Part shown: positions 1 to 50,429 of the stretch, piece after piece | Numbering within the stretch: position 1 is the stretch's first letter | Layout of the letters: each line of letters begins with the position of its first letter | From: a virus | Length of the DNA stretch: 50,429 nucleotides | Reading direction: 5' to 3' (one strand) | Virus record (IMG/VR): IMGVR_UViG_3300021356_000031 | Location: 1 to 50,429 of that record | Program-made: the position numbers and the translations under genes | The notes under the pieces: model-generated | The model's database searches: none | What the model saw: only the letters and a program-made list of their open reading frames with translations | Told to the model about the DNA's origin: nothing

Positions 1-124
1 CGCAGGCATTTGGCGTGGAGCAGCTGGAGCTTATGCAGGGACAGGTAATTTCTTAAATCTTGGTGGTTATGACGGCATTACGTTTACGACTGGAAATGCT
101 GATATTTCATCGCAAACAGAACGC
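1..124 (+). repeat. 124-bp exact direct repeat, copy 1 (fibre gene)
   Basis: Bases 1-124 are identical to 48925-49048 and diverge immediately after. Both copies encode the same fibre segment in the same frame (AGIWRGAAGAYAGTG onward). Copy 1 starts exactly at the window edge, as expected if the contig is circular with two alternative continuations. Confidence 0.95.
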
Positions 125-2059
125 CTCCGCATCGACTCAAGCGGTAACGTCGGGATTGGCACTGACAGTCCGACAACATTTACTGGTTACATTACTGTTC
201 ACCACAAAAATACGTCAGGTGATGCAATACATTTGATTGAAAGCGATGGTGGAATTATTGGTCAAACTTTTGTTAATGATGCTAGTGGGGTTGTTACAAC
301 AGGGTCACGTTCAAACCATCCGTGGCGTGTTACTACTAACGATACAGAACGCCTCCGCATCGACTCAAGCGGGAATGTTGGTATTGGTACTAGCAGTCCG
401 TCTTCATATCCGGTTGCTTCAGAACTTGTCGTAGATACTGGTGTTAGTGGTGGAATAACTGTGGTCAGTGATTCAACTACTGGAGGCTACGGCGGTGTTT
501 ACTTTGCTGATGGGACTACTGGCAACGAACAATACAGGGGTTTTATCCAGTACGACCACAATAACGCCGGGTCTGTTGATAGCTTAATACTAGGAAGTTC
601 TGGCACAGAAGCCATGCGCATCGACTCTAGCGGACAGGTAGGTATTGGCACTAGCAGTCCGTCATCTTTTGATGCCGCTGGCGATAATTTAGTTGTAGGT
701 ACTGGTTCAGGCAACAACGGCATGACCGTTTATAGCGGCACGGCAAACGCTGGTTCTTTGTTTTTTGCTGATGGAACTGGCTCTGCGGCGGCTAAAGCTG
801 ATGGATACATTCAGTATGAGCATAACAACCAAGCCTTAGCTTTCGCCACAAGCGGTGGTTCAGAACGCCTCCGCATCACCTCAGGTGGTGATGTCATTGC
901 AAAAACAGCAGATGCGCGGATTGGCAGTGATGCTGGCTCTGTGGAATACGGCACGAGTGCAGCAAACTCAGTTCGGTTTTACACCACCAATCTTGAGCGG
1001 TTTAGGCTGACCTCAAGCGGCAACGTAAAAATTGGTACGGGTACTGACCGCTCTAGCTTCCTAACTGCTTCTACAGCGAACTTACAAATTGACGGTGGTG
1101 TTGTCTTTGATGCGGGTTCTGGCAATGACGCAGAAATATTCAACTATCGAACCACAGCCATGTTGTTTGGTAATAGTGGCACTGAAGATATGCGTATCGA
1201 CTCTAGTGGTCGAGTCTTAATAGGTCAAAGTAGCAATACAGGTTCTGTTAATGCGGATAATCTTGTTGTCGGAACAGGAAGTGGTAACAACGGATTAACT
1301 ATTCTTTCTGGCACAGGCAGCGGCGGAACATTGGCGTTTGCAGATTCTGGCGCAGATGAAGATGGATTTGTTTCGTTTAACCACGCAAACCAATTTATGC
1401 AGTTTGGCACAGCCGCCGCAGAACGTATGCGCATCGACTCAAGCGGCAACTTAATTGTCGGGGGCACGACAGCACAAGGAGCTTCAGCAGTAACCATGAC
1501 CGCCGGCGGTAGCATTGTTACTGATGGTTTTATTAAGCCTCACACCGATGATGCTTATGACTTAGGAGCTTCAAGCCAACGCTGGCAAGACCTCTACCTG
1601 TCAGGCGGTGCTTACTTAGGCGGGGTAGCTTCAGCCAATAAGCTAGACGACTACGAAGAAGGGACGTGGACTCCTACCTATTCTCCACAAGCAAGCGCCT
1701 TCACTTCTATTACTTACGATGCTGCTGTTTATGGGAAGTACGTCAAAGTCGGTGCAGTAGTGCATATTCAGGGAATTGTTAGAACAGATGCTATTAGCGG
1801 AGGATCTGGTAATGTTTACATAGGTGGAATGCCTTTTACTGCAGATAATTATGGGGTTATTTCTATTGGATATACAAACAACTTTGCTGGAGATCATCCC
1901 GGCGGTTTATACACGGCAGCCTCTAGCACAGATATTATTATCAGATATAGAACTACCGCGAACTCTGGATTAGACAACCTTTTAAACGTAACTGATTTAG
2001 ACACTGGCGGGAATAAAAATTACCTAATTTTTTCTGGCACTTACATGACAACTCAATAA
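1..2059 (+). CDS. Tail fibre, C-terminal part (5' partial, allele A)
   Basis: The frame is open from base 2, so this is the 3' part of a longer fibre gene cut by the window edge. It contains repeated modules of the form ERLRIDSSGNVGIGT-SSPS, typical of trimeric phage fibre shafts, then a module starting EEGTWTPTYSP and a beta-rich C-terminus ending MTTQ. There is no S74 chaperone domain, unlike the fibre at 46568-50254. The first 124 bases equal 48925-49048 in the same codon phase, so joining the window ends would restore a fibre of about 1471 aa. It probably contacts the host receptor. A small hairpin (2062-2081) follows the stop, without a T-tract. Confidence 0.85.
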   Translation, partial: AGIWRGAAGAYAGTGNFLNLGGYDGITFTTGNADISSQTERLRIDSSGNVGIGTDSPTTFTGYITVHHKNTSGDAIHLIESDGGIIGQTFVNDASGVVTTGSRSNHPWRVTTNDTERLRIDSSGNVGIGTSSPSSYPVASELVVDTGVSGGITVVSDSTTGGYGGVYFADGTTGNEQYRGFIQYDHNNAGSVDSLILGSSGTEAMRIDSSGQVGIGTSSPSSFDAAGDNLVVGTGSGNNGMTVYSGTANAGSLFFADGTGSAAAKADGYIQYEHNNQALAFATSGGSERLRITSGGDVIAKTADARIGSDAGSVEYGTSAANSVRFYTTNLERFRLTSSGNVKIGTGTDRSSFLTASTANLQIDGGVVFDAGSGNDAEIFNYRTTAMLFGNSGTEDMRIDSSGRVLIGQSSNTGSVNADNLVVGTGSGNNGLTILSGTGSGGTLAFADSGADEDGFVSFNHANQFMQFGTAAAERMRIDSSGNLIVGGTTAQGASAVTMTAGGSIVTDGFIKPHTDDAYDLGASSQRWQDLYLSGGAYLGGVASANKLDDYEEGTWTPTYSPQASAFTSITYDAAVYGKYVKVGAVVHIQGIVRTDAISGGSGNVYIGGMPFTADNYGVISIGYTNNFAGDHPGGLYTAASSTDIIIRYRTTANSGLDNLLNVTDLDTGGNKNYLIFSGTYMTTQ

Positions 2060-2110
2060 TTATCTCAAGTGGATTCTTGAGACGGACAGTCCAACAAAAG
2101 GAGAAAAAAT

Positions 2111-2368
2111 ATGGCTTTATCAGAAGCAACAGTAAACGACAAGATTGAAGTCGTTAGTCAAGGTTCTTGGTCTTGTGTACAAGTAAGAACCGCAACAGTA
2201 ATCAGTCGTGATGGCGAAGAGATTTCTAGGACTTTCCATCGTCACGTAGTCATGCCAGATGCTGACTTAGCTCAAGAAGACTCTGACGTGTCAGCAATCT
2301 GCACCACAGTTTTTACACAAGCCTGTAAAGACGCATACGCGGCTCATGTCGCATCACAAGGAGTATAA
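2111..2368 (+). CDS. Small conserved phage protein downstream of fibre (85 aa)
   Basis: An 85-aa protein (starts MALSEATVNDKIEVV, ends VASQGV) preceded by an AAAGGAG ribosome site. It resembles a short protein family I have seen after fibre or tail genes in marine phages, whose function I do not know. It lies 51 bp after the fibre stop and 3 bp before the next gene, so it is probably co-transcribed with them. The alternative fibre end at the right of the window lacks this gene: the homologue of the next gene follows that fibre directly. It could be a fibre-assembly or accessory virion protein, but nothing in the sequence proves that. Confidence 0.6.
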   Translation: MALSEATVNDKIEVVSQGSWSCVQVRTATVISRDGEEISRTFHRHVVMPDADLAQEDSDVSAICTTVFTQACKDAYAAHVASQGV

Positions 2369-2371
2369 ATT

Positions 2372-2680
2372 ATGGCAGCAGTATGGACTGTATCAACACT
2401 TGAAAGAAACACAGCAGACGGTGGTGTCACTGTCGTACACTGGAGAGTCTCAGACTCAGAGACTGTAGGAGAAGACACTTATGTTGCTTCTTCTTACGGT
2501 ACTTGTGGATTCTCACCAGACCCCTCCTCAGAGGATTACATAGCTTATGATGACCTAACGGAAGCCGACGTGATTGGCTGGTGTCAGGGTGAGTTAGACG
2601 TTGAGGCTATTGAAGCTAGTCTGACTGCTAACATCAACGAGCAGAAGAACCCCACAACTGCTGATGGCGTGCCTTGGTAG
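2372..2680 (+). CDS. Small conserved phage protein, fibre-linked (102 aa)
   Basis: A 102-aa protein with the pattern WTVSTLERNT - VVHWRVSDSETVG - SSYGTCGFSPDP and an end in GVPW. The partial gene at 50264 encodes a homologue (WTIATLERNT, HWRVTETETVG, SSYGTCGFTPDP) after the alternative fibre, so this protein travels with fibre ends. I recognise the family as common in marine phages but without a known role. An AAGGAG-like site precedes the ATG. A perfect promoter starts 2 bp after its stop. Confidence 0.65.
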   Translation: MAAVWTVSTLERNTADGGVTVVHWRVSDSETVGEDTYVASSYGTCGFSPDPSSEDYIAYDDLTEADVIGWCQGELDVEAIEASLTANINEQKNPTTADGVPW

Positions 2681-2681
2681 T

Positions 2682-2710
2682 TTGACAACCTTCAAAAAAT
2701 ATGCTATAAT
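2682..2710 (+). promoter_or_regulatory. Perfect consensus sigma70 promoter (late)
   Basis: TTGACA at 2682-2687, a 17-bp spacer and TATAAT at 2705-2710. Transcription should start near 2717, right at the AAGGAG ribosome site (2715-2720) of the 52-aa gene. It would drive the internal virion and lysis block to 18888. Confidence 0.85.
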
Positions 2711-2885: not shown

Positions 2886-3119
2886 GTGAAGATAGGTATG
2901 GCTGTTAAAACAGAAATGGATTTAGCTTTAGAGGCCCTTGAAAAGATTGCTAAGCATGAAAAAGAATGTGGTGAGCGTTGGGCAGAAGCTGTAATAGAAC
3001 TTAGAGAGCTTCGTAAAGCTACTGACAGTCATGCTGCCCGTTGGGAAAAACTTGCTTGGCTTGTAGTGGGTGTAGTTATTACTGGTGCATCTTCTGTTAT
3101 TTTTGCACATTTGGGATAA
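2886..3119 (+). CDS. Coiled-coil protein with C-terminal membrane anchor (77 aa)
   Basis: Opens with GTG directly after the preceding stop; an ATG at 2898 (MAVKTEMDLALEAL) is an alternative start. A charged helical stretch, probably coiled coil (residues about 10-50), is followed by one membrane helix (LAWLVVGVVITGASSVIFAHLG) at the C-terminus. This resembles small tail-anchored proteins next to phage holins. I cannot assign a function. It is likely co-translated with the 52-aa protein upstream. Confidence 0.55.
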   Translation: MKIGMAVKTEMDLALEALEKIAKHEKECGERWAEAVIELRELRKATDSHAARWEKLAWLVVGVVITGASSVIFAHLG

Positions 3120-3122: not shown

Positions 3123-6100
3123 ATGAGTAGTAAAAGGTCTAGCAGGAATAATAAAAAGGTTTTAAAAGCACTTCGCCAGAAGAGAGCTAGAGGTGGGCGT
3201 ACTAAAAAGTTTTATGGTGGTGTTGAAGGCATGACAGGGCTTAATATCCCTAGCGAAGCTGAAATACAAGCTCGTATAAGACAGCAGCAAGATACTAATC
3301 AAGAAACTCCTGAACAAAAAGCCGCTAGAGAGGCGCAAGAAAAAGCAGCTAAAGAAGAAGCCGATAGACAAAAAGCAGAAGCGGATAGACTTGAAGCTGA
3401 AAAAAAAGCAGAAGCGGATAGACTTGAAGCTGAAAAAATAGCAAAACAAGGGAAGGTTAGTAGTGGCACCCAACCTACTACTACTACTACTACTCCTACA
3501 CCTACTACTACAACATCTTCTGTTGATGATCCTAAGCCTTTAAGAAGTGATTATGGTTCTAATTTAGGTGGACGTAGAGCAATTACTGCAAGTCAAGCCT
3601 ATGAAAGAGATTTAGCGGCATGGGAAGCTAGACAAGCTGCTAATATAGACGTAACAGAAGGAATTGGTAGTGGGTCTCCTACAGACATTGCCACCAGTAC
3701 AGTACAAGAAGGAACTACTATGAGCACTACAACATCGACACAGGGAGGCCCTCCAATAAACTTAGAAGTAACGCCTCCTGAAACTCCAGATGCTCCAGTA
3801 GCAGACGTAGCCAAATTAGACACAGGCGCTATAACTGAAAAGTCTTCTGATGCAGATAAACTAGCAGCGGGTATTAGCACTGAAGTTCAGCAGTTAGATA
3901 CTACGCCTACTGCCGTTACAAGAGATAAGGCTGAAGCTGGTGTAGCTAAAGCAGAAGCTGTGAGCAAAACTTCTAAAGCTGAAAGTGTAAAAGACTTTGA
4001 TGCTGCTACATATGATGCAGCAACGGCAGAAGATCTTGATCCTACTAAAGCTGCTGTAGGAACAGTTAGCGAGGATGCTATAGCTAAAGTAGATGAAGTA
4101 GAAGGTCTTACAGAAAGAGCAGTAGGTCAAGAAACTACTGCTGCTCAAAAAGAAAGTACTTTGGCTAAAACAGCTGAGTTTACTATTGATCCTCGTTCTA
4201 TTGCACCTAGCGTAGAAGGAGATGTTGCTAATGTAAGTCCTACCGCTGAAGCTGAAAGATCAACACGTAGAGATATTGTAGGGACAGAAGCCGATGATGG
4301 CACTGCTGCTATGATTGATCAAACTGTAGGCTACGAAGCAGCTAAACGTCGAGCAGTAAAAGGAACAGCCGCAAAAGGTGCAGCCGCAGAAATGATTGCA
4401 GCTGTAGGTGATCTACCTCCTGATATTACAGCGGCTGTTGTAGAAGACCCTGCAACTGTAGAGGCTCAATTAGATGAGCAACCTGTAGAGGTAAGAGCAG
4501 CTATTGCAGCGTTGCCTACAGAAGCTTTAGTATCTTCTCAAATGGAGTCTTTACTTGGAGGTATTGAAGATGGAGAAACACCCGCATGGGCTAGGCCAGC
4601 AGTAGCAGCTATTGAGCAAAAACTAGCTGCTAGAGGCATGTCAACCTCCACTGTAGGGCGTGATGCACTATTTAATGCGATTATACAAAGTGCTTTACCT
4701 ATCGCGCAAAGCAACGCACAGGCACTCCAGCAACGCGCTGCCCAGAATCTTAGCAATCAACAGCAGGCTAATCTTGCACAGTCTACACAAGACATGCAGC
4801 GGCGTATGGCTAACTTAGCTAACCGTCAAGGGGCTGCTTCGCAGACTGCGCAAATGGCTCAACAGATGGGTGTATTGCAAAGCAACTTTAACCAGCAAGC
4901 AACTGTTCTGTCTGCACAACAACAACAGCAAACAAGAACTCAAAACTTAAATAATCAACAACAGGCTGCTGTGCTTCGTTCTCAAAACCAACAAGCTATA
5001 AACGCTCAACAGCTAGGTAACGAACAGCAGATGGAGCTTGCTGAGTTACAAATTGAAGCTGCTACAGAAGGTGCAAATCAAAATGCAGAGAATCAAAGAA
5101 GGTTAGCAGAGATGCAAGTCGCTGCCGACTTCTTATCTAAAAATGCAGCATTTAAGCAGCAGATGGAGCTTGCTAACCTTTCTAATGATCAGCAGATGCG
5201 TCTTGCTAATTTAACAGCAAGAAATCAAGCTGAGTCTCAAAGGATGTCTAATGCAGAGAAAATTGAGTTAGCAAATTTAAATGCAGAGCTACAGACAAAT
5301 ATAGCTCAGGGGCGTATAGCCGCAGAAATGAATGTTGCTCAATTAAATGTAGATCAACAGACAGCTATTAGAAATGCTACTATGGTTGCTAATGTTGATT
5401 TAACTAAATTTAACGCGGCTCAACAAGTAGAGCTTGCTAATAGTAAAGCAATGCAAACTTTAGTTCTTGCAGATTTAAATAATCGACAGCAGGCAGCATT
5501 ACAGAATGCTACAGCTATGGCTAGTTTGGATATGGCAACAGTAGATCAAAGAACTAAAATAGCTGTAACGAATGCTCAAAGTTTTTTAGCTATGGACATG
5601 GCTAATTTGAATAATGAACAACAAGCTATTATGTTTGATCAACAAGCTAAACAACAAAGAATATTATCTGATCAAGCAGCTGAGAACGCAAGACGGCAAT
5701 TTAATGCTACTTCTGAAAATCAAGTAAATCAATTTTTAACTTCTACAGAAGCAGCGATGCGACAATTTAATGCTAGTCAAAATAATGCTATGAAGCAATT
5801 CAATGCAAGTGAAGCGAATAGAGCTTCTGCTCTTAATGCTCAGTTAGCTACTGATGTTTCTAAAGCTAATGCTACAATGAAACTAAATGCAGATCAGTTT
5901 AATGAAAATATGGATTTACAAAGAGAAACATGGAATGCTGCCAATGCTCAAGCAGTAGAGCAATCTAACATTGAGTGGCGAAGAAAATCAAACACGATTG
6001 ATACCGCAGCACAGAATGCTTCTAATATGCTAAATGCTCAGCAGACCTTTCAAATGGATTCTGCTGAAATGGCTTTCTTGTGGCAAACTCTTAGAGATGA

Positions 6101-6260
6101 AGCCACATATCAAAGAACGGCATATGAAAATGATCAGCAAAGAAAAACAACCTTGTATGCTACGGCGCTTGCAAATGAAGCAGGGGCTAGTGGACAAGAA
6201 AACTCTACTTCAGTAGATCGTTTATTTAACTTAGTTAAAGGTGTAACAGGTGGTAGCTAA
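3123..6260 (+). CDS. Very large Gln/Asn/Ala-rich internal virion protein (1045 aa)
   Basis: The N-terminus is basic and Arg/Lys-rich. An EAEK/KAEADRLEAEK coiled-coil follows (residues about 60-110), then a poly-Thr/Pro linker, then an Ala/Glu/Thr-rich segment. The C-terminal half (about 500-1020) is almost pure Gln, Asn, Ala and Leu in heptad-like repeats such as LANLN-EQQA and AMRQFNAS. No enzyme motif is visible. Position ahead of other internal proteins and composition suggest a core or ejected virion protein that forms long helical bundles. Plausible alternatives are a tail needle or an internal scaffold. It overlaps the next ATG by one base. Confidence 0.65.
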   Translation: MSSKRSSRNNKKVLKALRQKRARGGRTKKFYGGVEGMTGLNIPSEAEIQARIRQQQDTNQETPEQKAAREAQEKAAKEEADRQKAEADRLEAEKKAEADRLEAEKIAKQGKVSSGTQPTTTTTTPTPTTTTSSVDDPKPLRSDYGSNLGGRRAITASQAYERDLAAWEARQAANIDVTEGIGSGSPTDIATSTVQEGTTMSTTTSTQGGPPINLEVTPPETPDAPVADVAKLDTGAITEKSSDADKLAAGISTEVQQLDTTPTAVTRDKAEAGVAKAEAVSKTSKAESVKDFDAATYDAATAEDLDPTKAAVGTVSEDAIAKVDEVEGLTERAVGQETTAAQKESTLAKTAEFTIDPRSIAPSVEGDVANVSPTAEAERSTRRDIVGTEADDGTAAMIDQTVGYEAAKRRAVKGTAAKGAAAEMIAAVGDLPPDITAAVVEDPATVEAQLDEQPVEVRAAIAALPTEALVSSQMESLLGGIEDGETPAWARPAVAAIEQKLAARGMSTSTVGRDALFNAIIQSALPIAQSNAQALQQRAAQNLSNQQQANLAQSTQDMQRRMANLANRQGAASQTAQMAQQMGVLQSNFNQQATVLSAQQQQQTRTQNLNNQQQAAVLRSQNQQAINAQQLGNEQQMELAELQIEAATEGANQNAENQRRLAEMQVAADFLSKNAAFKQQMELANLSNDQQMRLANLTARNQAESQRMSNAEKIELANLNAELQTNIAQGRIAAEMNVAQLNVDQQTAIRNATMVANVDLTKFNAAQQVELANSKAMQTLVLADLNNRQQAALQNATAMASLDMATVDQRTKIAVTNAQSFLAMDMANLNNEQQAIMFDQQAKQQRILSDQAAENARRQFNATSENQVNQFLTSTEAAMRQFNASQNNAMKQFNASEANRASALNAQLATDVSKANATMKLNADQFNENMDLQRETWNAANAQAVEQSNIEWRRKSNTIDTAAQNASNMLNAQQTFQMDSAEMAFLWQTLRDEATYQRTAYENDQQRKTTLYATALANEAGASGQENSTSVDRLFNLVKGVTGGS
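3372..3437 (+). repeat. 33-bp tandem repeat (2 copies)
   Basis: Two in-frame copies with a 33-base period, encoding KAEADRLEAEK twice in the coiled-coil part of the 1045-aa protein. An ACT/CTA microsatellite encoding poly-Thr lies just downstream (about 3472-3510). Confidence 0.8.
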
Positions 6261-7615
6261 TGGGATTTTTTAAAAAAATATTTAAAGGCATAGGTAAAGT
6301 TTTTCGTAAGATTGGTAGGGCAATTAAGAAAGGCTTTAAAAAATTTGGTAAGTTCATGGGTAAGCTTGGCATTGTAGGTCAGCTAGGTATGATGTTTATT
6401 CTTCCGGGGATAGGGGGTGCCCTTATGAAGGGCCTTGGAGGTATTGCAGGTAATATGGCAGCACTTACTGGAAAGTTTGCAGGTCTTAGCGGCACGGCGC
6501 TGGGTACAGCTGTTAAGGGCATGGGAGCCGTATTGAAAGGCGCTCATGGTTTTGTTCAAACAGGTGTAAATGCTTTTAAAACTGTTACAAGCGGAATTAT
6601 GGAGTTTGGTAAAACAGCGTTAAACAAAATACCCGGAATTGAAATTAGTAGTGCCAAAGCAAACTTCTTTGGTGCTGATAGCGTAATGGAAGGTATTCGT
6701 GTGGATGCGGCTAATATTGGAAACCCTTTCCGCAACAGTATTACACTAAAGCCCGGAATGTCTGTAGATCAGTTAAGTAAAACAACAGGTTTATCAGTAG
6801 AATCTTTACAAAAATTAAATCCAAATGTTAATTTATCGGCTCCGGGGGCTGACCTTACTGGGCGTACATTGAATTTAGATTTTGGTAATATTGCTCCTGA
6901 TATACAAAAAGTTATTGAAAATGCTAAGATAACAACTGCTGGTGGAGTTCCTTCAGACGCTTTTGGAGTTGATGTAGGAAGAGTTGATACGCTAAGGCCG
7001 GGAGAAGTAAATTTAAACTTTGACCACACGCCTACCCAGAACAATGGTTTTCCAACAAGTGCTGTTGATCCTTTTCCAGAAGTAACTAGTGTATTAAACC
7101 AAGCAGATTTAACTAGAATAGCTTCAGTAGAAATGCCTAACATTACAACTAATTTATTAGAGCCTATACCTGTAGATAAAATTGGAACGACTATGGCAGA
7201 TCCAGTAGGCACGATTGCAGATCCAACTACAGCTATTGAAAGTGTAGTACCTGATGGTCTGGCTGAAGTAGGAGCTACTCAACAAGAATCGTTATTATCT
7301 AGAGGTTTTACTAGGGCTAGAGAAGGTTTGTCAGCAAGCCTTACTAGTGCTTTAGATGATCCTATCGGCACAGGCTTGCCTATGGTTCAAAATCTAGCAA
7401 GTACTTTTGCTTCTCCAGAAGAAATTGATATGGGTCGAAGAGGCCCCGGATTTGTTGCAGATGTACTGCCACAATTTGATATTGCATCTGTTGATATGAC
7501 TCAATTATTAAATGCTGGCAACTATGGGCCGGGAGCCGTATCAATGGATTTCGTAAATCAAGCTATGCTATTTCAAAGCCCGAATCAACGCTTTCCGGGC
7601 GCATTAGGTTACTAG
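6260..7615 (+). CDS. Putative internal virion protein with basic amphipathic N-terminus and LysM-like segment (451 aa)
   Basis: Residues 1-36 are strongly basic and amphipathic (FKKIFKGIGKVFRKIGRAIKK), followed by hydrophobic Gly/Ala/Met stretches (about 38-100), a pattern seen in membrane-active ejected proteins. Residues about 161-207 (ITLKPGMSVDQLSKTTGLSV, then ESLQKLNPNV and GRTLNL) match the LysM pattern weakly but recognisably. The rest is Pro/Asp/Val-rich. The gene overlaps the previous stop (TAATG). A role in crossing the membrane or peptidoglycan during DNA ejection is inferred from composition and neighbours only. Confidence 0.55.
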   Translation: MGFFKKIFKGIGKVFRKIGRAIKKGFKKFGKFMGKLGIVGQLGMMFILPGIGGALMKGLGGIAGNMAALTGKFAGLSGTALGTAVKGMGAVLKGAHGFVQTGVNAFKTVTSGIMEFGKTALNKIPGIEISSAKANFFGADSVMEGIRVDAANIGNPFRNSITLKPGMSVDQLSKTTGLSVESLQKLNPNVNLSAPGADLTGRTLNLDFGNIAPDIQKVIENAKITTAGGVPSDAFGVDVGRVDTLRPGEVNLNFDHTPTQNNGFPTSAVDPFPEVTSVLNQADLTRIASVEMPNITTNLLEPIPVDKIGTTMADPVGTIADPTTAIESVVPDGLAEVGATQQESLLSRGFTRAREGLSASLTSALDDPIGTGLPMVQNLASTFASPEEIDMGRRGPGFVADVLPQFDIASVDMTQLLNAGNYGPGAVSMDFVNQAMLFQSPNQRFPGALGY

Positions 7616-7625
7616 GAGATAAATA

Positions 7626-8180
7626 ATGAGTATGCCACAAATTAATACTGATTTTATACAAGCAAGACTAAGCAGGTCTGTTCCGGGTGAGTCTTTTGCT
7701 AATGATCCTGATACTCCGTATCCATTTGAAAAGGCTCCAGAGTTTACTTCTGTAAATAAAGCTTCAGAATTTATTTTTGAAAGAATTACTGAAGAAGAAA
7801 ACTATATGCAATTTATGGAAGTAATTGCAGGGGGTACGCCTCTAATGGAGATTGCTAAAGTATTGCTGTACTCTATGTATGACGAAGGTAAAATTAATCC
7901 TGATTTAATGATATTATTAATTGAACCTACTGTGTATATTTTAATGGCTTTGTGTGAGCGAGCAGACATTCCTTTTACTATTGATGGTGAGTTAGGCGAA
8001 GAAGAAGATCTTGATGGTAATAGTCAAGATTACGAAATTTTACAAAGACTTCAAGAGGCCCAAAGGTCAAATGAAATACCTTTACCACAAAATATAGAGC
8101 AAAGGTTGCAAGAGCTTAGGCCACCACCGCCTGAAGAGTCGCCCCCTGAACAAACAAGTCTACTAGATATGGAGCAGTAA
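7626..8180 (+). CDS. Acidic protein of unknown function in virion block (184 aa)
   Basis: A good AGGAG site precedes the ATG. The protein is acidic, mostly helical in the middle (YMQFMEVIAGGTPLMEIAKV), and ends in a Pro/Glu-rich tail (RPPPPEESPPEQTS). I do not recognise a family. Its place between two internal virion proteins, abutting the next ATG, suggests a structural or morphogenesis role, perhaps as a partner or chaperone of the large ejection proteins. Confidence 0.5.
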   Translation: MSMPQINTDFIQARLSRSVPGESFANDPDTPYPFEKAPEFTSVNKASEFIFERITEEENYMQFMEVIAGGTPLMEIAKVLLYSMYDEGKINPDLMILLIEPTVYILMALCERADIPFTIDGELGEEEDLDGNSQDYEILQRLQEAQRSNEIPLPQNIEQRLQELRPPPPEESPPEQTSLLDMEQ

Positions 8181-19240: not shown

Positions 19241-20212
19241 TTATGCGACCTTGTTAAAAGAAACTTTACCAACGTCACCCCGTAGTCCAGCCTTCATGTA
19301 GGTGGTAGCTCTACCTTCAAAGAAGTTCTGATGCTCTACACCTAACACATCGTCCAGCCAGTTCAGTGGGTTATCCTTGACATTGTAGTTAGTCTTCAGC
19401 CCTAACTGTAGCAGCCTGCGGTCAGCAATGTACCTGATGTACTGTTGCATCTCCTTCTTGGTCAAGCCCGGTATGTCACCTTGCTCAAACACCAAGTCCA
19501 AGAATCTATCCTCTAGGTCAACCATCTCACGACATGCCTGATATATCTCAGCCTTGAAGTCATCAGTCCACAAGTCTATGTTCTCCTGAATAAACTCCCT
19601 GAATAGCTTTGTCATGGCTTCTACGTGCATGGATTCATCACGTATGCTGTACGTAATAATCTGCCCCATACCCTTCATCTTGCCAAACCGTGGGAAGTTA
19701 AGTAGGATGATAAAGCTAGAAAACAACTGTAAACCTTCAGTAAAACCTGAGTAGATAGCTAGTGCCTTAGCAATGGACTTCTTGTCGCCCTTAGTGACCT
19801 TCACAGCGTTGATGTACTCATGCTTGTCTGCCATAGCCTCATACTCTGCAAACGCCTTATACTCCACCTCTGGCATCCCTACAGTGTCCAGTAGCAGGCT
19901 GTAGGCATGTTGGTGTATGGACTCCATGTTGGCAAAGCTAGACATCATCATACGTGCTTCAGGTTTCTTGAAGATACGCATGTACCTATCGACATACCCA
20001 GCACCTACGTCTACATCGGATTGTGTAAACAGACGGAAGATTTGAGTCAGTAGATTTTTTTCTTCATCAGTCATTGTCTGCCAATCTTTGACATCATTGT
20101 GCAATGGCACATCCTCTGGGAACCAGTGCATCTGATTCTGTTGTGAGTAGTAGTCGAACATCCAAGGATGGTCAAACGGTTTGTAGTAATCTCTAGTGTC
20201 TAATAAGCTCAT
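19241..20212 (-). CDS. nrdB: Class I ribonucleotide reductase, small (beta) subunit
   Basis: The 323-aa ferritin-like radical-generating subunit. Candidate metal ligands are Asp66 or Asp68 (FTQSDVDVG), Glu97 and His100 (FANMESIHQHAY), Glu159 (GFTEG), and Glu193 with His196 (DESMHVEAM). Tyr104 lies seven residues after Glu97, the place of the stable tyrosyl radical (E. coli Tyr122), so this looks like a tyrosyl-radical enzyme. Length is slightly short but normal for phage copies. With nrdA it makes dNTPs for phage replication. It overlaps the MazG-like gene by 4 bases. Confidence 0.93.
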   Translation of the reverse strand: MSLLDTRDYYKPFDHPWMFDYYSQQNQMHWFPEDVPLHNDVKDWQTMTDEEKNLLTQIFRLFTQSDVDVGAGYVDRYMRIFKKPEARMMMSSFANMESIHQHAYSLLLDTVGMPEVEYKAFAEYEAMADKHEYINAVKVTKGDKKSIAKALAIYSGFTEGLQLFSSFIILLNFPRFGKMKGMGQIITYSIRDESMHVEAMTKLFREFIQENIDLWTDDFKAEIYQACREMVDLEDRFLDLVFEQGDIPGLTKKEMQQYIRYIADRRLLQLGLKTNYNVKDNPLNWLDDVLGVEHQNFFEGRATTYMKAGLRGDVGKVSFNKVA

Positions 20213-20514
20213 GCAACATCTCCCTCTTTAATAAAAACACCATGAGTATTCATGTGTCCCTTTCTGTCTTTTATATCGTTGTATGCCACCTTTAAACATT
20301 CCTCAAGTGTCGTATCATTCATAATGGCTAAGGTGTTCAACACTACCAAGCAGTCACCGATGTCATCAGTAACGTCACGTTCCTTGGCTATGTTATCTCC
20401 TAACTCCCCCATCTCTGACACAAGCTTAGCAAATTGAGCAAGGGGTGTACTGTTGTTGATTATACCACGCTCCATAGACCAGAGGCTAATCAGGTGTATA
20501 AGTTCATCGCTCAT
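20209..20514 (-). CDS. MazG-like nucleotide pyrophosphohydrolase (101 aa)
   Basis: An all-alpha NTP pyrophosphohydrolase pattern: KLVSEMGELGDNIAKE (Glu34, Glu37) followed by VTDDIGDCLVVLNTLA (Asp51, Asp54), the usual metal-binding ExxE and DxxD pairs. I start at the ATG at 20514 (MSDELIHL), which overlaps the upstream 55-aa gene. The frame opens at 20541 but that start lies deep in the neighbour. It sits between nrdA and nrdB and probably cleans or tunes nucleotide pools. The exact substrate is not evident. Confidence 0.75.
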   Translation of the reverse strand: MSDELIHLISLWSMERGIINNSTPLAQFAKLVSEMGELGDNIAKERDVTDDIGDCLVVLNTLAIMNDTTLEECLKVAYNDIKDRKGHMNTHGVFIKEGDVA

Positions 20515-34398: not shown

Positions 34399-34412
34399 AC
34401 TTTTCTCCTGTT

Positions 34413-34463
34413 CCCTTTTTAATCTTTAGAGGTCGTAAGACCTCCTCTAAAGATTAAAAAGGG
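34413..34463 (-). promoter_or_regulatory. Bulged hairpin, family copy B
   Basis: Minus strand: CCCTTTTTAATCTTTAGA-GGA-GGTC-TTAC-GACC, then the exact complement of the lower stem, so 18 plus 4 pairs with a 3-nt GGA bulge. The tip matches copy A while the stem sequence is unrelated but fully paired. Its 5' strand includes the T-tract of the terminator at 34456-34476. Confidence 0.85.
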
Positions 34464-34476
34464 AGCCGAAGCTCCC
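34456..34476 (-). terminator. Intrinsic terminator, UUCG loop, shared with hairpin B
   Basis: Minus strand GGGAGC-TTCG-GCTCCC (34476-34461) followed by TTTTT. It ends the transcript of the 81-aa gene. The terminator T-run is also part of the lower stem of hairpin copy B, so the two structures compete. Confidence 0.8.
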
Positions 34477-34501
34477 TTGTAGGTTTAATTAAGACTTAAA
34501 G

Positions 34502-34747
34502 TTATTCTTCCTTAGCTTCAATCCGATTAACTACAAGCAATAACGCTTGGGCTAAATCAAACTCGCTGGTCTGGCAAGAATTATTCCTAAAAGTTTTATT
34601 CTTTAATAAATCTTTAACTCCCTCCAAGCCATCGGGTCGATCTTCAAGTAATCTTAACTGGGTATGGATTTCTCGAAACGCCTCGTCGAATATTACTAAT
34701 TCTCTTTCGACATGAGTTAGATCTAAAACTGTTTGAAATACTGACAT
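34502..34747 (-). CDS. Small helical early protein (81 aa)
   Basis: AAGGA precedes the ATG. Charged, largely helical protein (VERELVIFDEAFREIHTQLR, then DLAQALLLVVNRIEAKEE). Followed by a terminator. Not recognised. The early position suggests host takeover or regulation. Confidence 0.6.
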   Translation of the reverse strand: MSVFQTVLDLTHVERELVIFDEAFREIHTQLRLLEDRPDGLEGVKDLLKNKTFRNNSCQTSEFDLAQALLLVVNRIEAKEE

Positions 34748-34756
34748 AATATATCC

Positions 34757-34846
34757 TTAAACGTGAGTAGCGAGTTTAATTAAAATTGGAGACAGCAGAG
34801 CCGCCCAAGTAAAAAAAACAATAAAACTTAAAAAAATAAGATTCAT
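34757..34846 (-). CDS. 29-aa membrane microprotein
   Basis: ATG at 34846 with CAGGAG 5 bases upstream; TAA ends at 34757. One hydrophobic helix from MNLIFLSFIVFFTWAALLSP to a short polar end (KLATHV). It lies between a terminator and the 81-aa gene. The strong ribosome site supports it; function unknown. Confidence 0.6.
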   Translation of the reverse strand: MNLIFLSFIVFFTWAALLSPILIKLATHV

Positions 34847-34856
34847 TAAAACTCCT

Positions 34857-34877
34857 GAAAAGGCCCCCGAAGGGGCC
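34857..34877 (-). terminator. Intrinsic terminator, UUCG loop
   Basis: Minus strand GGCCCC-TTCG-GGGGCC (34877-34862) followed by TTTTC, just after the first early gene. It would attenuate or end the leader transcript. Confidence 0.82.
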
Positions 34878-34885
34878 AAGTTAAA

Positions 34886-35260
34886 TTAGATCATTCCAAG
34901 GTCAGCAGCGGTAGCGATTCGAGGGGCCGAAGAAGTTTTAAAGTTCTTGGACTGCTTTGGATTGGCAGTAATTTTAACTTCTTTGTTAGACTTTAAGTCT
35001 TCAGTCTTCAGAACTTTAACATACTTGGCAGCAGCCGAAGTCTTACCGTTGATTTTCTTGACGGAGAATAATTTATTTATGTCCCCAGCCAAAGGCTGAC
35101 CATCGTGAACGGCCTTGATCGTCGCACCAAAGCGAGCCGTGAGTTTAGCAAACTCAAATCGCTTGATGTCATTTTCACCAATATATTTGTAAGCCAAAGT
35201 CTTGGCACAAGCATATACAGCTTTATCAGTAGCAGGTTTAGTCAAATCGTATTTAGCCAT
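34886..35260 (-). CDS. First early gene, basic unknown protein (124 aa)
   Basis: First gene of the leftward arm. GGGA lies upstream of its ATG, and a leader of about 0.7 kb separates it from the promoter. Basic protein with a helical N-terminus (KAVYACAKTLAYKYIGENDI, FEFAKLTARFGATIKAVHDG) and a Lys/Ser/Thr-rich tail. No family recognised. The charge and first position suit a nucleic-acid-binding early regulator, and it is the natural candidate to bind the leader hairpins; that is inference. A terminator follows directly. Confidence 0.65.
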   Translation of the reverse strand: MAKYDLTKPATDKAVYACAKTLAYKYIGENDIKRFEFAKLTARFGATIKAVHDGQPLAGDINKLFSVKKINGKTSAAAKYVKVLKTEDLKSNKEVKITANPKQSKNFKTSSAPRIATAADLGMI

Positions 35261-35312
35261 AATCGTTTTCCCGATTGTGTAATTTTTCGTCGAGCCGCTG
35301 TCGGCCCTTCCT

Positions 35313-35383
35313 AGTTTTGACTATCTATAAAATTTAAAGAAGTCGTAAGACTTCTTCTTTAAATTTTATAGATAGTCAAAACT
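35313..35383 (-). promoter_or_regulatory. Bulged hairpin, family copy C (first early gene leader)
   Basis: Minus strand tip AAGTC-TTAC-GACTT with a 3-nt AAG bulge on the 5' side and a long AT-rich lower stem that pairs throughout. Same architecture as copies A and B with a partly changed tip (GGTC to AGTC, compensated on the other arm). Confidence 0.8.
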
Positions 35384-35716
35384 TCTCAGCTAGTCCCTTC
35401 AAAACCTTAAAAGGTTTTGAAGGGACTAGCTGGATCGTAAAAGACCCTTTGGGTCTTTTAAATTTGGGAGTCCTTAGCTCCTCTTAGGAGGAGCTAGATG
35501 GCTGTGAAGACTTGCCAGCTAATTAGTTTTCAAATTCTTGAAAACTAAGAAAAACTTTGAAGTTTAAAGTAAACTTCAAAGACTAAAAAGACTTCTGTTT
35601 ACTTTGTAAACTAGAAGTCTTCAAAGTTTTCTGGAGGTCAAACCTCTAAAGTCTTCTTAGACTTTAGAGTTTTGGGAGGTCGCACTTAAAAGTCTTCAAA
35701 GACTTTTAAGAATGCG
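35313..35716. repeat. Dense array of nine distinct inverted repeats
   Basis: Successive hairpins, with arm length in bp: 35313-35383 (32, 3-nt bulge), 35387-35432 (22), 35438-35460 (10), 35475-35496 (9), 35523-35548 (11), 35555-35581 (12), 35588-35621 (15, one bulge), 35644-35669 (11) and 35681-35716 (16, 2-nt bulge). Loops are 2-5 nt. About three quarters of the 404 bases are paired. Stem sequences differ, though AAGTCTT/AAGACTT recurs. Confidence 0.92.
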
Positions 35717-44196: not shown

Positions 44197-44966
44197 TGGC
44201 TGCAACATATCTACAAATAACCAATGAACTTCTGCGAGAGCTAAATGAGGTTGCGTTGACTTCTGCAACTTTTGCTGGTGCTATTGGTATTCAACAACAT
44301 GTCAAAGATGTAGTCAATAGGGCTTACTTTGATATAGTTAATGAAGAACCTCAGTGGCCTTTTCTAGCAGCTAATTTAAGTGGTGAAACAGACCCTATGT
44401 ACGGCAATGTGTATGTAGAAACTGTGGCAGGACAGCGTTGGTATAATTTAAAACCTTCTAGTTCTTCTCTAACCACTGACTATGGTTATGTTGATTGGGA
44501 TAACTTTTATTTAACTACTGTAGGTGTATCAGGAGAAACAGCACCTTATGTTGCACGTAACTTGCGTTTTACTACTATAGAATCTTGGAAAGACTATCGA
44601 CGTATTCCAGAAAACTTAGATGATGCAGATACCCAGCAATATGGTGTACCTGACCGTGTAATTAAAAGTCCTGATAATCGTAAGTTTGGACTAAGCGCAA
44701 TACCTGATAAAGTATATCGTGTTTGGTTTTATGCTTACGTATTACCTACAGAACTTTCAGCTTTTGGTGATGAAATAGTTTTTCCAGATGTATATAAAAC
44801 AGTTTTGCTTGCAAGAGCTAGATATTATGTACATCAGTTTAAAGAAAATACACAAGAAGCGGCCTTTGCTCTGGAAGATTATAAACGTGGATTACGTTTA
44901 ATGAAACTTCATTTAATGGAGCCTACGCCCGGATATTTTAAAGATGACCGTATGAGGTTTGTATAA
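44196..44966 (+). CDS. Tail tubular protein A-like head-tail adaptor (256 aa)
   Basis: The pattern YLQITNELLRELNEVALTSA, VVNRAYFDIVNEEPQWPFLA and the C-terminal helix TVLLARARYYVHQFKENTQE suit the T7 gp11-like adaptor that closes the portal. Length and gene order (coat, adaptor, nozzle, fibre) fit. Overlaps the next gene by one base. Confidence 0.82.
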   Translation: MAATYLQITNELLRELNEVALTSATFAGAIGIQQHVKDVVNRAYFDIVNEEPQWPFLAANLSGETDPMYGNVYVETVAGQRWYNLKPSSSSLTTDYGYVDWDNFYLTTVGVSGETAPYVARNLRFTTIESWKDYRRIPENLDDADTQQYGVPDRVIKSPDNRKFGLSAIPDKVYRVWFYAYVLPTELSAFGDEIVFPDVYKTVLLARARYYVHQFKENTQEAAFALEDYKRGLRLMKLHLMEPTPGYFKDDRMRFV

Positions 44967-46564
44967 TGTCTCAGCCTTTTGGTATTTCATGCAGAGGTGG
45001 TTTAAACACAAACCTTAATCAGCTTGAAATGCTTCGACAACCCGGCTTTGCTACTAAGCTCAGAAACTTTGAGGTAGATCCTGATGGAGGCTACAGACGA
45101 GTTAACGGGTTTACGCAGTATGGCGATACACGTCCTAATAGTGATAATGATATTCTTGGGATTTTTGTGTATGGCGACGGCGTGGTTGTCTGTTCAGGCA
45201 CTGATATACATTTTAGTATTGATGGCTCAACGTGGATACAAATTAATAAAAGTAGTGTGGCTAATGGTGGTGATGACTATACCACTTTTACGGGTCGCAG
45301 TGCCTTAACACGTACAGGCCAAGGACAATGTTCATTTGCACTTTTTGAAGGTGCGACATTTGATTATGGTGAGTTGATCATTGCAGACGGTGCTAACAAG
45401 CTTTATTCGTTTCGCATGGAAGGTACTGGCGCACTAACGACTCGCACATTTTTTGCGTTTGAAATTACAGTAGATGGTACTAACGGCGTTAAGTATATAG
45501 CAAACCATGATCATCATCTTATTGCAGCAGGTGTACAAAATAACTTAAATACAGTTTATTACAGTGTCTACAACGACCCTGATAACTTTACGGGTACTGG
45601 TGCTGGCTCAGTAGTTATATCAGATCAAATTCAAGGCATTCGTGGCTTCCGTACTGATTTGATTGTATTTGCTAAAAATAGCATTCACAAGCTTATAAAT
45701 ATTAATGACTCTGCAAGTATACGTATTGATCCTATTACAGAAAACGTAGGATGTTTATCAGGCTATAGCATTCAAGAAATTGGTGGTGATTTGTTATTTT
45801 TAAGTCCTGATGGTATTCGTACTATTGCAGGTACAGCACGTATTGGTGACGTTGAGTTAAGTTCTGTGTCTCGACAGATTCAACAAATTATTGGAAATAT
45901 TGCAGACTCAATTAATACATTTACTATTGACAGTTGTGTATTACGTTCTAAATCTCAGTATCGTTTATTTTATACAGACAGTAGTGCAAGTTCATCAGTT
46001 TCTAAAGGCATTATAGGTACCTTTACTCCTAATGGTTTTGAATGGTCTGAAACGCTTGGTATTCAGGCTATGGGACTTACAACAGGATTTGACAATAATG
46101 GAGTTGAAAAAGCTTTTCATGGTGATAAAGATGGGTACATCTATAATCATGATACAGGAGATACTTTTAATCCTCAAGGCTCCGCAGAAAATATAGCTGC
46201 AGAATATCAAACACCTAATTTTGATTTTGGTGATATTGGAACTAGAAAAACTATTAAATATGTACGTCTTTCTGTATCGCCCGAAGGCGAGTGTCAGCCA
46301 ACGCTAAGAATGCGTTTTGATTATGAAGACCCTAATATTACACAGCCCCCAGACTATACACTAGACTCTATTCCTTTACCAGCTATTTTTGGTTCGGCTG
46401 CATTTGGAGTAGCCACTTTTGGCGCTGCTAACGATCCAATGTTTAGACAACCAGTAGAAGGCAGCGGAAATACAATTAGTTTTAGAATTAAAAGCGAAGA
46501 TACTAAAGCGCCATATGCAATTAATGGTCTTTACATAGATTATATGCCATCAGGTAGGAGATAA
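44966..46564 (+). CDS. Tail tubular protein B-like tail nozzle / stabilisation protein (532 aa)
   Basis: A mostly beta protein with repeated strand patterns (ILGIFVYGDGVVVCSGTDIH, GELIIADGANKLYSFRMEG, LLFLSPDGIRTIAGTARIG) typical of podovirus tail nozzles (P22 gp10/T7 gp12 position). It starts SQPFGISCRGGLNTNLNQLE. It is placed between the adaptor and the fibre. I cannot distinguish a gp12-like nozzle from a gp10-like hub by eye. Confidence 0.75.
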   Translation: MSQPFGISCRGGLNTNLNQLEMLRQPGFATKLRNFEVDPDGGYRRVNGFTQYGDTRPNSDNDILGIFVYGDGVVVCSGTDIHFSIDGSTWIQINKSSVANGGDDYTTFTGRSALTRTGQGQCSFALFEGATFDYGELIIADGANKLYSFRMEGTGALTTRTFFAFEITVDGTNGVKYIANHDHHLIAAGVQNNLNTVYYSVYNDPDNFTGTGAGSVVISDQIQGIRGFRTDLIVFAKNSIHKLININDSASIRIDPITENVGCLSGYSIQEIGGDLLFLSPDGIRTIAGTARIGDVELSSVSRQIQQIIGNIADSINTFTIDSCVLRSKSQYRLFYTDSSASSSVSKGIIGTFTPNGFEWSETLGIQAMGLTTGFDNNGVEKAFHGDKDGYIYNHDTGDTFNPQGSAENIAAEYQTPNFDFGDIGTRKTIKYVRLSVSPEGECQPTLRMRFDYEDPNITQPPDYTLDSIPLPAIFGSAAFGVATFGAANDPMFRQPVEGSGNTISFRIKSEDTKAPYAINGLYIDYMPSGRR

Positions 46565-46567: not shown

Positions 46568-49500
46568 ATGGCTCAAAATTACACAAGACAAAGCTCATTT
46601 AGTGATGGCGATACTATTAGTGCCTCTATTTTTAATGATGAGTACAATCAGATAGTTAATGCTTTTTCATATTCTAGTTCGTCAGCATCTTCTACAGGCC
46701 ACAGGCACGATGGTTCCTCTGGTCAAGGCGGTAATATTTTTAAAATTGGCGACCTAGATTTTCTTAATAAAATTGAAGTAGATGACACTAACAATCGTTG
46801 GGGTTTTTATGTAGAAGTTTCTAGTGCGGCTGTAGAGCAAATTCGCATACAAGATGGTGCTATTGTACCTGTTACTAATAATGATATTGATCTAGGTACA
46901 TCTTCTTTAGAGTTTAAAGATTTGTTTCTTGATGGAACTGCTCACATTGATACTCTTGATGTAGATGTAAATGCTACAGTTGCTGGTACATTAGGAGTAA
47001 CTGGAGCAACTACACTGTCTAGTACTTTAGCAGTTACGGGTGCAGTTACAGCTAATGCTGGGGTTGTAGTAGATAATATTACGATAGACGGTACAGAGAT
47101 AGATTTAAGCTCTGGGGATCTTACTGTAGATGTAGCTGGCGATATTATACTAGATGCAGATGGTGGAGATGTACTGTTAAAAGATGCTGGCGTTCAATAT
47201 GCTGCATTAACAAATAATTCAGGTAATTTAATTATTAAATCTGGCTCTACTACTATGCTTACAGCCAGCGGAGCTAATGCTACATTTGCAGGTAATGTAG
47301 ATGTAGACGGTAATTTAACAGTTACAGGCACTACTACTTTTAATGGAGGTACGCTTACTTTAGGTGATGCAGCTTCAGATAATGTAGTTTTTGGAGCAGA
47401 TGTAAACTCAAACATTATACCTAATACAGATAATGCTTATGATTTAGGAAGTTCTTCACAAGAATGGAAGGATCTGTATGTAGATGGTATTGCATACTTA
47501 GATGGTATTAACTTTAATGGTACGGCTATTTCTGCTACTGCTGCTGAAATTAATATTCTTGATGGTGTTACCGCTACAGCCACAGAACTAAACCTGCTGG
47601 ATGGCGTTACTGCTACCACCGCTGAATTGAACTACGTTGATGGGGTTACTTCAGCAATCCAGACACAATTGGATGCTAAGGCTCCTACAGCTTCGCCTAC
47701 GTTTACTGGGACTGTTACTGTTCCCGGCTTAACCACAACCGCTGATGTATCCTTTGGCGACAACGACAAGGCCATCTTTGGTGCTGGTAGTGACCTACAG
47801 ATTTATCACGATGGTAGTCATAGCTACATTGAAGATGCGGCAGGAACTGGAAACCTTAAACTCAGAACCAACACGCTACGAATTGAAAACGCGGCGGGAA
47901 CAGAGTTATCCGCATTGTTTGTGCAAGATGGAGCGGCGACACTCTACAACGACAATACTGCTCGTTTAGCCACCACCTCCACAGGCATCGATGTTACGGG
48001 TGATGTGGTCAGCGATGGTTTGACTGTTGATGGTGATGGTTCTTTTACTGGCAATTTTGAAATATCTGGCTTAAGCCCAAAGATTTTCCTAAATGAAACA
48101 GATACTACAGATGTAAATAGCCGCATAAGAAGTGCTGGCGGTAAGCTAGAAATACAAACAGTAGATAATTCAGATGCTAATCCTGTAACACGTTTTCAAA
48201 TAAACCACTCAACAGGTGATGTCAGCATTCCTAGTGGTGATTTAGACGTAACGGGTACTGTGACGGCTGATGGTTTGACGGTTGATGGCAGTGCAACTAT
48301 TCAAGCAAGTTCAAGCCCGGCGCTAATTGTTAAAGATACAACTAATAATGCTGAAGCAAGGCTTCAAGCATTCAATAGCACTGCAACAGTTGGAACGCAG
48401 TCCAACCATTCATTTAGCATAGAAACAAACGACACTAATCGTGCTTTGTTTGCCTCCAACGGAGACATCAGCTTTTACGAAGACACTGGCACAACTGCTA
48501 AGTTCTTTTGGGATGCTTCTGCGGAGTCTTTGGGCATCGGGACTATCAATCCAACAGGCGATTTAGAAATAGCTACATCAGCAACAGACACGGGCGTTGA
48601 TTTAGTCCTTGATGGTAATAAAACCAGCAATGGCGGTGTTGGAAGCATAATCTTTAATAACAATGGCGACAGCGTTGGCATGATTCGCTCCAACAGAGCA
48701 TCTGCTAATGATGCGGCGGATATGCTGTTTTACACACAGGCTACTGGTGGCGCTAATTCAGAACGCATGCGCATCGACTCCAGCGGCAACGTCGGTATAG
48801 GCACTAGCAGTCCAGTAACCCTTAAATCTTCTACTACATTACAAGTTGATGGTAATGCAAAACTAGGGGATGACAATGGTCGTGGTCTACTTTCATTAGG
48901 AGACATTGCTTCTACTGGAGCTAACGCAGGCATTTGGCGTGGAGCAGCTGGAGCTTATGCAGGGACAGGTAATTTCTTAAATCTTGGTGGTTATGACGGC
49001 ATTACGTTTACGACTGGAAATGCTGATATTTCATCGCAAACAGAACGCATGCGCATTGACTCAAGCGGCAATCTTTTGGTGGGTAAGACTAGTGCTAGTA
49101 GCGCCACTGTAGGGTTCCAAGCTGGACAAGATGGCTTTATTGCGGCAACAAGAGCAAGCGCACAGCCTTTAGTTCTTAACCGCACAACAAACGATGGAAT
49201 CATTGCAGACTTCCGTAAAGACGGCTCAACAGTCGGTAGTATTGGTACTGCTACGGCAGATACTTATCCATATTTTGCTTCATCAACTTTTGGTTTTCGT
49301 TTAAGAAACTCGACAAAAACAATCACACCATCTACAAGCACTGGCGCTAATAACGATGCGGCTGTTGATTTAGGTTATTCAAGTAGCCGCTTCAAAGACC
49401 TCCACCTGTCAGGCAATGTTAATGCGGCACAAGTAAACTTAGCAGATGCTGGTGGCACATTAAGAAACGTCTTAGATTTAGATGGGTCTGACAATTTAAA

Positions 49501-50254
49501 AGTTGGTACAGGCTCTTCTGCTGGAACTAGGGCTATTACCTTCTTCACAGAAAATACGGAGCAGATGAGGCTGGATGCGTCAGGCAACTTGCTGGTGGGG
49601 AAGACTTCTGCCTCTGGTTCCACAGTAGGAGGAGAAATTCGTGCCACTGGTGCTGTTTTAGCAGTACGTGATGGAGATTTCGCTGGATACTTTAACCGTA
49701 AAACATCCGACGGCGAGATTGTACGTTTTGTAAGAGACACCACAACAGTCGGTAGTATTAGTGCTGTTGATAGCGATTTGTTGATTATGTCCTCACAAAG
49801 TGGACATAAAGGTTTACGTTTTGGCAATGGTTATATAGCTCCTACAAATAATAGTGGTGCTGTTGAGGACAACACAACAGACTTAGGTTTAAATTCTTAT
49901 AGATTCCAAGACATTTACGCCGCCAACGGAACGATTCAAACGTCTGACCGCAACGAAAAGCAAGACATCGAAGCACTGTCTGATGCAGAGCAGCGCGTAG
50001 CTGTAGCTTGCAAAGGTTTACTACGCAAGTTCCGCTGGAAGTCTGCCGTAGAAGAAAAAGGCGACGAAGCTCGTATCCACTTTGGAATCATTGCACAAGA
50101 CCTAAAATCAGCATTTGAGGCAGAAGGCTTAGACGCTGGACGCTACGGGATGTTTATCAACACAACATGGACTGATGAAGAAACTGGTGAGGAACGTAGC
50201 CGCATGGGTGTGCGCTACAGTGAACTATTAGCATTCATCATCGCAGCAATCTAG
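46568..50254 (+). CDS. Tail fibre with C-terminal S74 chaperone (1228 aa, allele B)
   Basis: AGGAG precedes the ATG. The N-terminal part (YTRQSSFSDGDTISASIFND) should bind the tail. The shaft has repeats (GVTATATELNLLDGV, TTAELNYVDGV, GDNDKAIFGAGSDLQIYHDG, RMRIDSSGNVGIGT). The last 103 residues are an S74 intramolecular chaperone: TSDRNEKQDIEAL with Ser1126 and Lys1131 as the self-cleavage pair, HFGIIAQDLK and VRYSELLAFIIAAI. Residues encoded by 48925-49048 match the start of the window exactly. From about 47570 the codon use looks less AT-rich, which suggests module transfer. Confidence 0.92.
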   Translation: MAQNYTRQSSFSDGDTISASIFNDEYNQIVNAFSYSSSSASSTGHRHDGSSGQGGNIFKIGDLDFLNKIEVDDTNNRWGFYVEVSSAAVEQIRIQDGAIVPVTNNDIDLGTSSLEFKDLFLDGTAHIDTLDVDVNATVAGTLGVTGATTLSSTLAVTGAVTANAGVVVDNITIDGTEIDLSSGDLTVDVAGDIILDADGGDVLLKDAGVQYAALTNNSGNLIIKSGSTTMLTASGANATFAGNVDVDGNLTVTGTTTFNGGTLTLGDAASDNVVFGADVNSNIIPNTDNAYDLGSSSQEWKDLYVDGIAYLDGINFNGTAISATAAEINILDGVTATATELNLLDGVTATTAELNYVDGVTSAIQTQLDAKAPTASPTFTGTVTVPGLTTTADVSFGDNDKAIFGAGSDLQIYHDGSHSYIEDAAGTGNLKLRTNTLRIENAAGTELSALFVQDGAATLYNDNTARLATTSTGIDVTGDVVSDGLTVDGDGSFTGNFEISGLSPKIFLNETDTTDVNSRIRSAGGKLEIQTVDNSDANPVTRFQINHSTGDVSIPSGDLDVTGTVTADGLTVDGSATIQASSSPALIVKDTTNNAEARLQAFNSTATVGTQSNHSFSIETNDTNRALFASNGDISFYEDTGTTAKFFWDASAESLGIGTINPTGDLEIATSATDTGVDLVLDGNKTSNGGVGSIIFNNNGDSVGMIRSNRASANDAADMLFYTQATGGANSERMRIDSSGNVGIGTSSPVTLKSSTTLQVDGNAKLGDDNGRGLLSLGDIASTGANAGIWRGAAGAYAGTGNFLNLGGYDGITFTTGNADISSQTERMRIDSSGNLLVGKTSASSATVGFQAGQDGFIAATRASAQPLVLNRTTNDGIIADFRKDGSTVGSIGTATADTYPYFASSTFGFRLRNSTKTITPSTSTGANNDAAVDLGYSSSRFKDLHLSGNVNAAQVNLADAGGTLRNVLDLDGSDNLKVGTGSSAGTRAITFFTENTEQMRLDASGNLLVGKTSASGSTVGGEIRATGAVLAVRDGDFAGYFNRKTSDGEIVRFVRDTTTVGSISAVDSDLLIMSSQSGHKGLRFGNGYIAPTNNSGAVEDNTTDLGLNSYRFQDIYAANGTIQTSDRNEKQDIEALSDAEQRVAVACKGLLRKFRWKSAVEEKGDEARIHFGIIAQDLKSAFEAEGLDAGRYGMFINTTWTDEETGEERSRMGVRYSELLAFIIAAI
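48925..49048 (+). repeat. 124-bp exact direct repeat, copy 2 (fibre gene)
   Basis: Identical to bases 1-124. The two fibre sequences share this segment and split right after it (ERMRIDSSGNLLVG here, ERLRIDSSGNVGIG in copy 1). No comparison upstream of copy 1 is possible because it starts at the window edge. Confidence 0.95.
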
Positions 50255-50263
50255 GAGATTAAA

Positions 50264-50429
50264 ATGGCTACATGGACAATCGCAACACTTGAACGAAACA
50301 CAGACTCAGACCAAGGGGTAATCGTAGCCCACTGGCGGGTAACTGAAACTGAAACTGTGGGTACTGGAGATGACGCTGTAACTTACAGTGCTTCATCCTA
50401 TGGAACCTGTGGCTTCACCCCAGACCCCT
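50264..50429 (+). CDS. Fibre-linked small protein, homologue of 2372-2680 (3' partial)
   Basis: ATG at 50264 with AGGAG upstream; cut by the window end after 55 codons. It reads MATWTIATLERNTDSDQG, then HWRVTETETVG and SSYGTCGFTPDP, clearly homologous to the 102-aa protein at 2372 but with many nucleotide differences and a small insertion. Its presence after the alternative fibre end suggests that this gene and the fibre tip are exchanged as a unit. Confidence 0.75.
   Translation, partial: MATWTIATLERNTDSDQGVIVAHWRVTETETVGTGDDAVTYSASSYGTCGFTPDP

Follow-up and report, generated by a model that had tools for sequence, protein, structure and literature searches.

Variable fibre ends are an already known source of host-range change. 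In marine co-occurring phages, read recruitment revealed fibres whose N-terminus is conserved and whose C-terminus varies (Mizuno et al. 2014, PMC3909814), and distant members among the Alteromonas phages share fibre and chaperone modules (Gonzalez-Serrano et al. 2023, PMC10579305). Separate and intramolecular chaperones have been likened to each other for Pam3 and Alteromonas phages (PMC9608196, PMC10579305). We present here the analysis of a 50,429-nt stretch of marine phage DNA, positions 1 to 50,429 of IMG/VR record IMGVR_UViG_3300021356_000031 (hereafter the window), which is a further instance of this known fibre C-terminus variability and module sharing. The locus resembles the metaviromic islands of PMC3909814 in having a variable C-terminus behind a conserved N-terminus; those islands rest on read recruitment, whereas here one contig holds two continuations from one base, one ending in a Peptidase_S74 (S74) domain and one not. 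The contig pins one such junction precisely, and the same shaft module is near-identical in phages with apparently unrelated backbones. Like the Alteromonas modules (PMC10579305), the locus has a small gene downstream of the fibre and a host-recognition module moving between unrelated phages; the Alteromonas chaperones were tested experimentally, while the small gene discussed here, g85, is a candidate by sequence that showed no relation to those chaperones.

Comparison of the window with itself gave an exact match between positions 1 to 124 and 48925 to 49048 (repeat R, both copies on the plus strand) in matching codon phase, as the first-pass annotation had described. Extending the alignment gave 97.9% identity over 144 bp, and a chance origin of this identity is excluded. 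No second long, distant exact repeat was seen in this comparison, and the other repeated 30-mers listed belong to a local tandem repeat near 3370. The first copy of R leads into fibre end A and the second into fibre end B. The contig start coincides exactly with R; the second copy runs on into B, and the contig terminates within a second homologue of the gene g102 before B reaches any backbone gene. An assembly graph branching at R would yield the observed contig whether B belongs to a strain variant or to another phage sharing the module around R.

Joining 48924 to 1 produces an open frame of 1471 aa, completed by end A (685 aa; 2 to 2059, plus strand; from the ORF and its translation across the join). 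The C-terminal tip domain of end A starts DDYEEGTW (1646 to 2056, plus strand), a signature that was also counted across loci. Neither a Pfam match nor an S74 domain was found in the 685-aa A part. Downstream lie g85 (2111 to 2368, plus strand; 85 aa, PHROG 6228), which neighbour counts and profile matches mark as a small gene after A-type tips, and then g102A (2372 to 2680, plus strand; 102 aa, DUF7936 in Pfam, PHROG 7802). The intact fibre of about 1471 aa without S74 and the 85-aa and 102-aa genes behind it, all previously proposed, were thus recovered. Relatives place two further genes here: g77 (2886 to 3119, plus strand), a conserved small gene located after the fibre block, and g1045 (3123 to 6260, plus strand), a large backbone gene that follows the block. 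At the other end of the window, a structural gene stands directly upstream of the fibre (44966 to 46564, plus strand; assigned from its match to PHROG 5107 and the relatives' gene order, and called gp12-like by position only).

Related contigs contain the gp12-like gene, fibre, g85, g102, g77, and g1045 all in one piece. One of them, L060, whose DNA is about 86% identical to the window over 3775 to 8038, has the gp12-like gene, a single fibre of 1459 aa, and then g85, g102, g77, and g1045. Because the left and right ends of the window are adjacent in relatives, reading through A restores the expected order, and closure into a circle through A, as originally suggested, is well supported by this gene order. 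The record is best explained as a phage genome of about 48.9 kb, either circular or circularly permuted, its fibre gene running from 46568 through R to end A, with B as a population variant arising by shaft-module exchange; we give this joint reading a probability of roughly 0.6.

The fibre ORF with end B spans 46568 to 50254 (plus strand; 1228 aa) and matches PHROG tail fibre families. PF13884 (Peptidase_S74) matches it C-terminally at residues 1126 to 1187 with 39.5 bits against a curated cut-off of 22, and in an alignment Ser1126 pairs with the first residue of 3gud, the solved GA-1 domain. End B thus retains, by alignment, the predicted cleavage serine that opens the released domain, an intramolecular chaperone whose predicted released piece is 103 aa (49943 to 50251, plus strand). 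The domain and cleavage serine are shared with the S74 chaperones of endosialidase K1F, the T5 L-shaped fibre, and the GA-1 neck appendage; unlike these proteins, end B ends early, after an AFIIAAI segment, and end A is without such a domain. The start codon of g102B (50264 to 50429, plus strand; recognized by sequence match and cut off at the contig end) lies 9 bp after the fibre stop with no g85 between, and its DNA is 67% identical to 2383 to 2525 in g102A. These results agree with the earlier description of a 1228-aa S74 fibre continuing from 49049 and followed directly by a divergent homologue of the 102-aa gene. Since B never rejoins the backbone, it is linked to the phage by one 124-bp exact stretch, and B may sit on the phage's own backbone, in a second phage sharing the module, or in tandem with A.

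R lies within a 286-bp shaft module (48783 to 49068, plus strand) that is 98.25% identical in the loci L405 and L406 and has both ends in a recurrent shaft motif. The compared stretches of L405 and L406 yielded no homologue of the gp12-like gene, the fibre N-terminus, or the capsid protein of the window, and their backbones show no relation to the window phage at the sequence level. The motif, a protein pattern close to ERMRIDSSGNVGIGT, repeats through these fibres. The first-pass annotation had proposed a search among relatives for the same breakpoint; three different continuations (A, B, and that of L406) depart from the 286-bp module at one shared copy of this motif. Where shared stretches end inside motif regions, 13/20 distinct ends were no more than 10 nt from a motif, compared with an expectation of 4.3, in a set picked afterwards (stretches of at least 100 bp with ends within motif regions) of which 2/20 are the window's own. 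A broader test, taking in all shared stretches, short ones and N-termini included, gave no excess of ends in motifs, and an earlier, stricter motif definition yielded too few fibres. Because alignments tend to run on into conserved motifs, the test carries a bias; the result is suggestive of shaft motifs as exchange hot spots.

Because the module is present in phages with seemingly unrelated backbones, the assembly may have been misjoined across it, a real if unlikely alternative: B would come from a different co-sampled phage sharing exact R, and the true genome would have only end A. Such a chimera would account for the 98% identity of the R-containing module between these phages, for a contig that starts exactly at R, as expected at an assembly-graph branch, and for a B that stops short of every backbone gene. 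Two backbone-related loci, L187 and L209, have the homologous upstream gene and fibre N-terminus followed by an S74 end and then g102, with no g85; with the B layout present at this very locus, a true variant is equally natural. Loci fetched by g1045 likewise had both arrangements, S74 then g102 in 8 and an A-type tip then g85 in 3. The supported view from these comparisons is that A and B are interchangeable kinds of fibre end, either of which may occupy the locus in backbone-related phages.

In relatives L062, L441, and L229, several fibre genes follow one another and both S74 and A-type ends are present; L441 and L443, also with several fibres in a row and both kinds, are close to the window in backbone too; and L150 has the order S74, g102, A-type end, and later g85. 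By analogy with these, a single genome might hold B with its g102 and then a second R-containing fibre ending in A, the gap falling between 50429 and 1. This tandem layout requires a 124-bp exact repeat within one genome and a second g102 between two fibre ends, which is rare among relatives, and L060, whose DNA is about 85% identical to the backbone, has one fibre; we regard it as improbable.

In the recombination reading that we favour, the phage fibre gene would run from 46568 through R to end A, and the roughly 1.4 kb of B would be an alternative end in the sampled phage population, probably carried by a close relative of the window phage. Such alternatives would arise when phages recombine homologously within shared shaft modules and recurrent motifs, the repeated motifs keeping the reading frame during exchange; recombination of this kind in short shared stretches is the simplest mechanism. 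The ends would be exchanged as sets, either a non-S74 tip with g85 and g102 or an S74 fibre with g102, and the exchange might alter host range. Points against this reading are the location of R within a module common to unrelated phages and the tandem fibres of relatives.

A programmed switch swapping both ends within a single phage had also been suggested and would fit the joining of both ends at one point and in one codon phase. No match to PF00239, PF00589, or PF00078 was found in the record (which may be incomplete), nor any switch recombinase or reverse transcriptase, and unannotated ORFs of at least 150 aa had no recombinase or reverse-transcriptase match. The absence of a resolvase (serine recombinase), tyrosine recombinase, or reverse transcriptase from the record argues against a switch, as do a repeat that is direct and within one gene and an assembled circle without a silent cassette; we consider a switch very improbable. 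The locus looks less like a built-in switch than like ordinary recombination of host-recognition parts, or an assembly that combines two variants. From the first-pass interpretation we retain a host-recognition module whose alternative fibre 3′ ends differ in assembly type, and not the programmed switch, for which no enzyme was found.

The neighbours of g85 and g102 differ with the kind of fibre end. At 158 non-redundant loci with g85, pooled from several queries of which some select one end type, the preceding gene had an A-type (DYEEGTW) tip in 130, another end without S74 in 27, and S74 in 1, so that g85 is directly downstream of a non-S74 gene in 157/158; at the sole S74 locus, a gap of about 330 bp separates the two genes. 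In counts pooled in the same way, g102 without an intervening g85 is preceded by S74 in 101 cases, by an A-type tip in 3, and by other genes in 21. Loci retrieved with g85 as the sole query gave 40 A-type tips, 22 other non-S74 ends, and 0 S74 ends, and those fetched by g102 alone gave S74 then g102 in 34 and an A-type tip, g85, and g102 in 6. S74 neighbours in these counts were scored with several S74 types, a profile set that also matches some A-type ends; such ends were classed by hand-set rules, and individual loci may be misassigned. Across 11 named genomes, among them pelagiphages, cyanophages, a roseophage, and a methylophage (Bylgja was judged by sequence only), the gene before g85 has a DYE-x-G tip in 10/11 and S74 in 0/11; g102 is specific to neither end type in the named genomes. 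A single-sequence search of the A tip against named phages gave no match because the tip diverges fast.

From its position, we infer that g85 is a candidate for a protein that partners or chaperones tips lacking S74. g85 does not co-diverge with the tip it follows: the correlation was absent (rho −0.01 over 60 loci), and among locus pairs whose g85 copies were at least 85% identical, the tips were less than 50% identical in 55/58. g85, which is better conserved than the tips preceding it, thus does not track the variable portion of the tip. A helper acting on a common part of the tip and a small structural protein fit these data equally well. If g85 aids folding or assembly of A-type tips, it would do for A what S74 does for B. 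The fuller proposal, that g85 is a trans-acting chaperone or cap for hypervariable DYEEGTW tips in unrelated marine phages and that shaft-motif recombination swaps an S74 end for a trans-chaperoned end together with its helper gene, is tentative and, taken whole, somewhat doubtful. A helper role would give a function to PHROG 6228, unannotated in cyanophages, pelagiphages, and roseophages, and would explain the exchange of fibre ends that differ in what they need for assembly.

Pam3 gp25 and Tfa of Mu (PMC9608196) are, like g85, products of a small gene directly after the fibre, with a beta part followed by helices. g85 is about half their size, and its chaperone role is an analogy with no convincing structural match. 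An AlphaFold2 model of g85 has three strands and two helices with a mean pLDDT of 96.5; the structure search gave no significant Foldseek match, and the best VIA-align hit (Z 4.2) was to an unrelated protein. The search with g102 gave nothing convincing, its weak similarity to LptE (Z 5.7) being within the tool's stated background. As neighbours modelled with three strands and two helices in matching order, g85 and g102 (2111 to 2680) may be distant relatives, but a profile comparison was not significant and homology was set aside. A full-text literature search for the tip signature and both small-gene families found no paper; there is weak evidence that the link between g85 and DYEEGTW tips is new. 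Separately, g85 and the gap upstream of it (2056 to 2368 in the window, 4961 to 5273 in L325) are 94.6% identical in DNA to locus L325, which has an unrelated capsid protein and a tip before g85 that is not similarly conserved.

The rest of the record encodes a terminase, an SU10-like portal, a major head protein, a family A DNA polymerase, a primase-helicase, and both ribonucleotide reductase subunits; no integrase was found in the record. DNA similarity to named phages (26000 to 50429 compared) was confined to a short capsid stretch of the pelagiphages HTVC103P and HTVC104P. The region of the ribonucleotide reductase small subunit (19241 to 20517) is 91 to 92% identical in DNA and 98% in protein to those of L229 and L253, whose gp12-like genes are less than 30% identical to the window's; this similarity is a further sign of recent exchange. 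Between the leftward and rightward gene blocks, 34405 to 35432 contains perfect or near-perfect inverted repeats with arms of 30 nt (35313 to 35342 and 35354 to 35383), 28 nt (34405 to 34432 and 34444 to 34471), and 22 nt (35387 to 35408 and 35411 to 35432). These are possible terminators or a possible replication or regulatory region; an Rfam search gave no RNA family match, the inverted repeats included. A T5orf172/MUG113-type protein with weak matches to homing-endonuclease PHROGs is encoded at 25292 to 25819 (minus strand), where its gene adjoins and overlaps the DNA polymerase gene.
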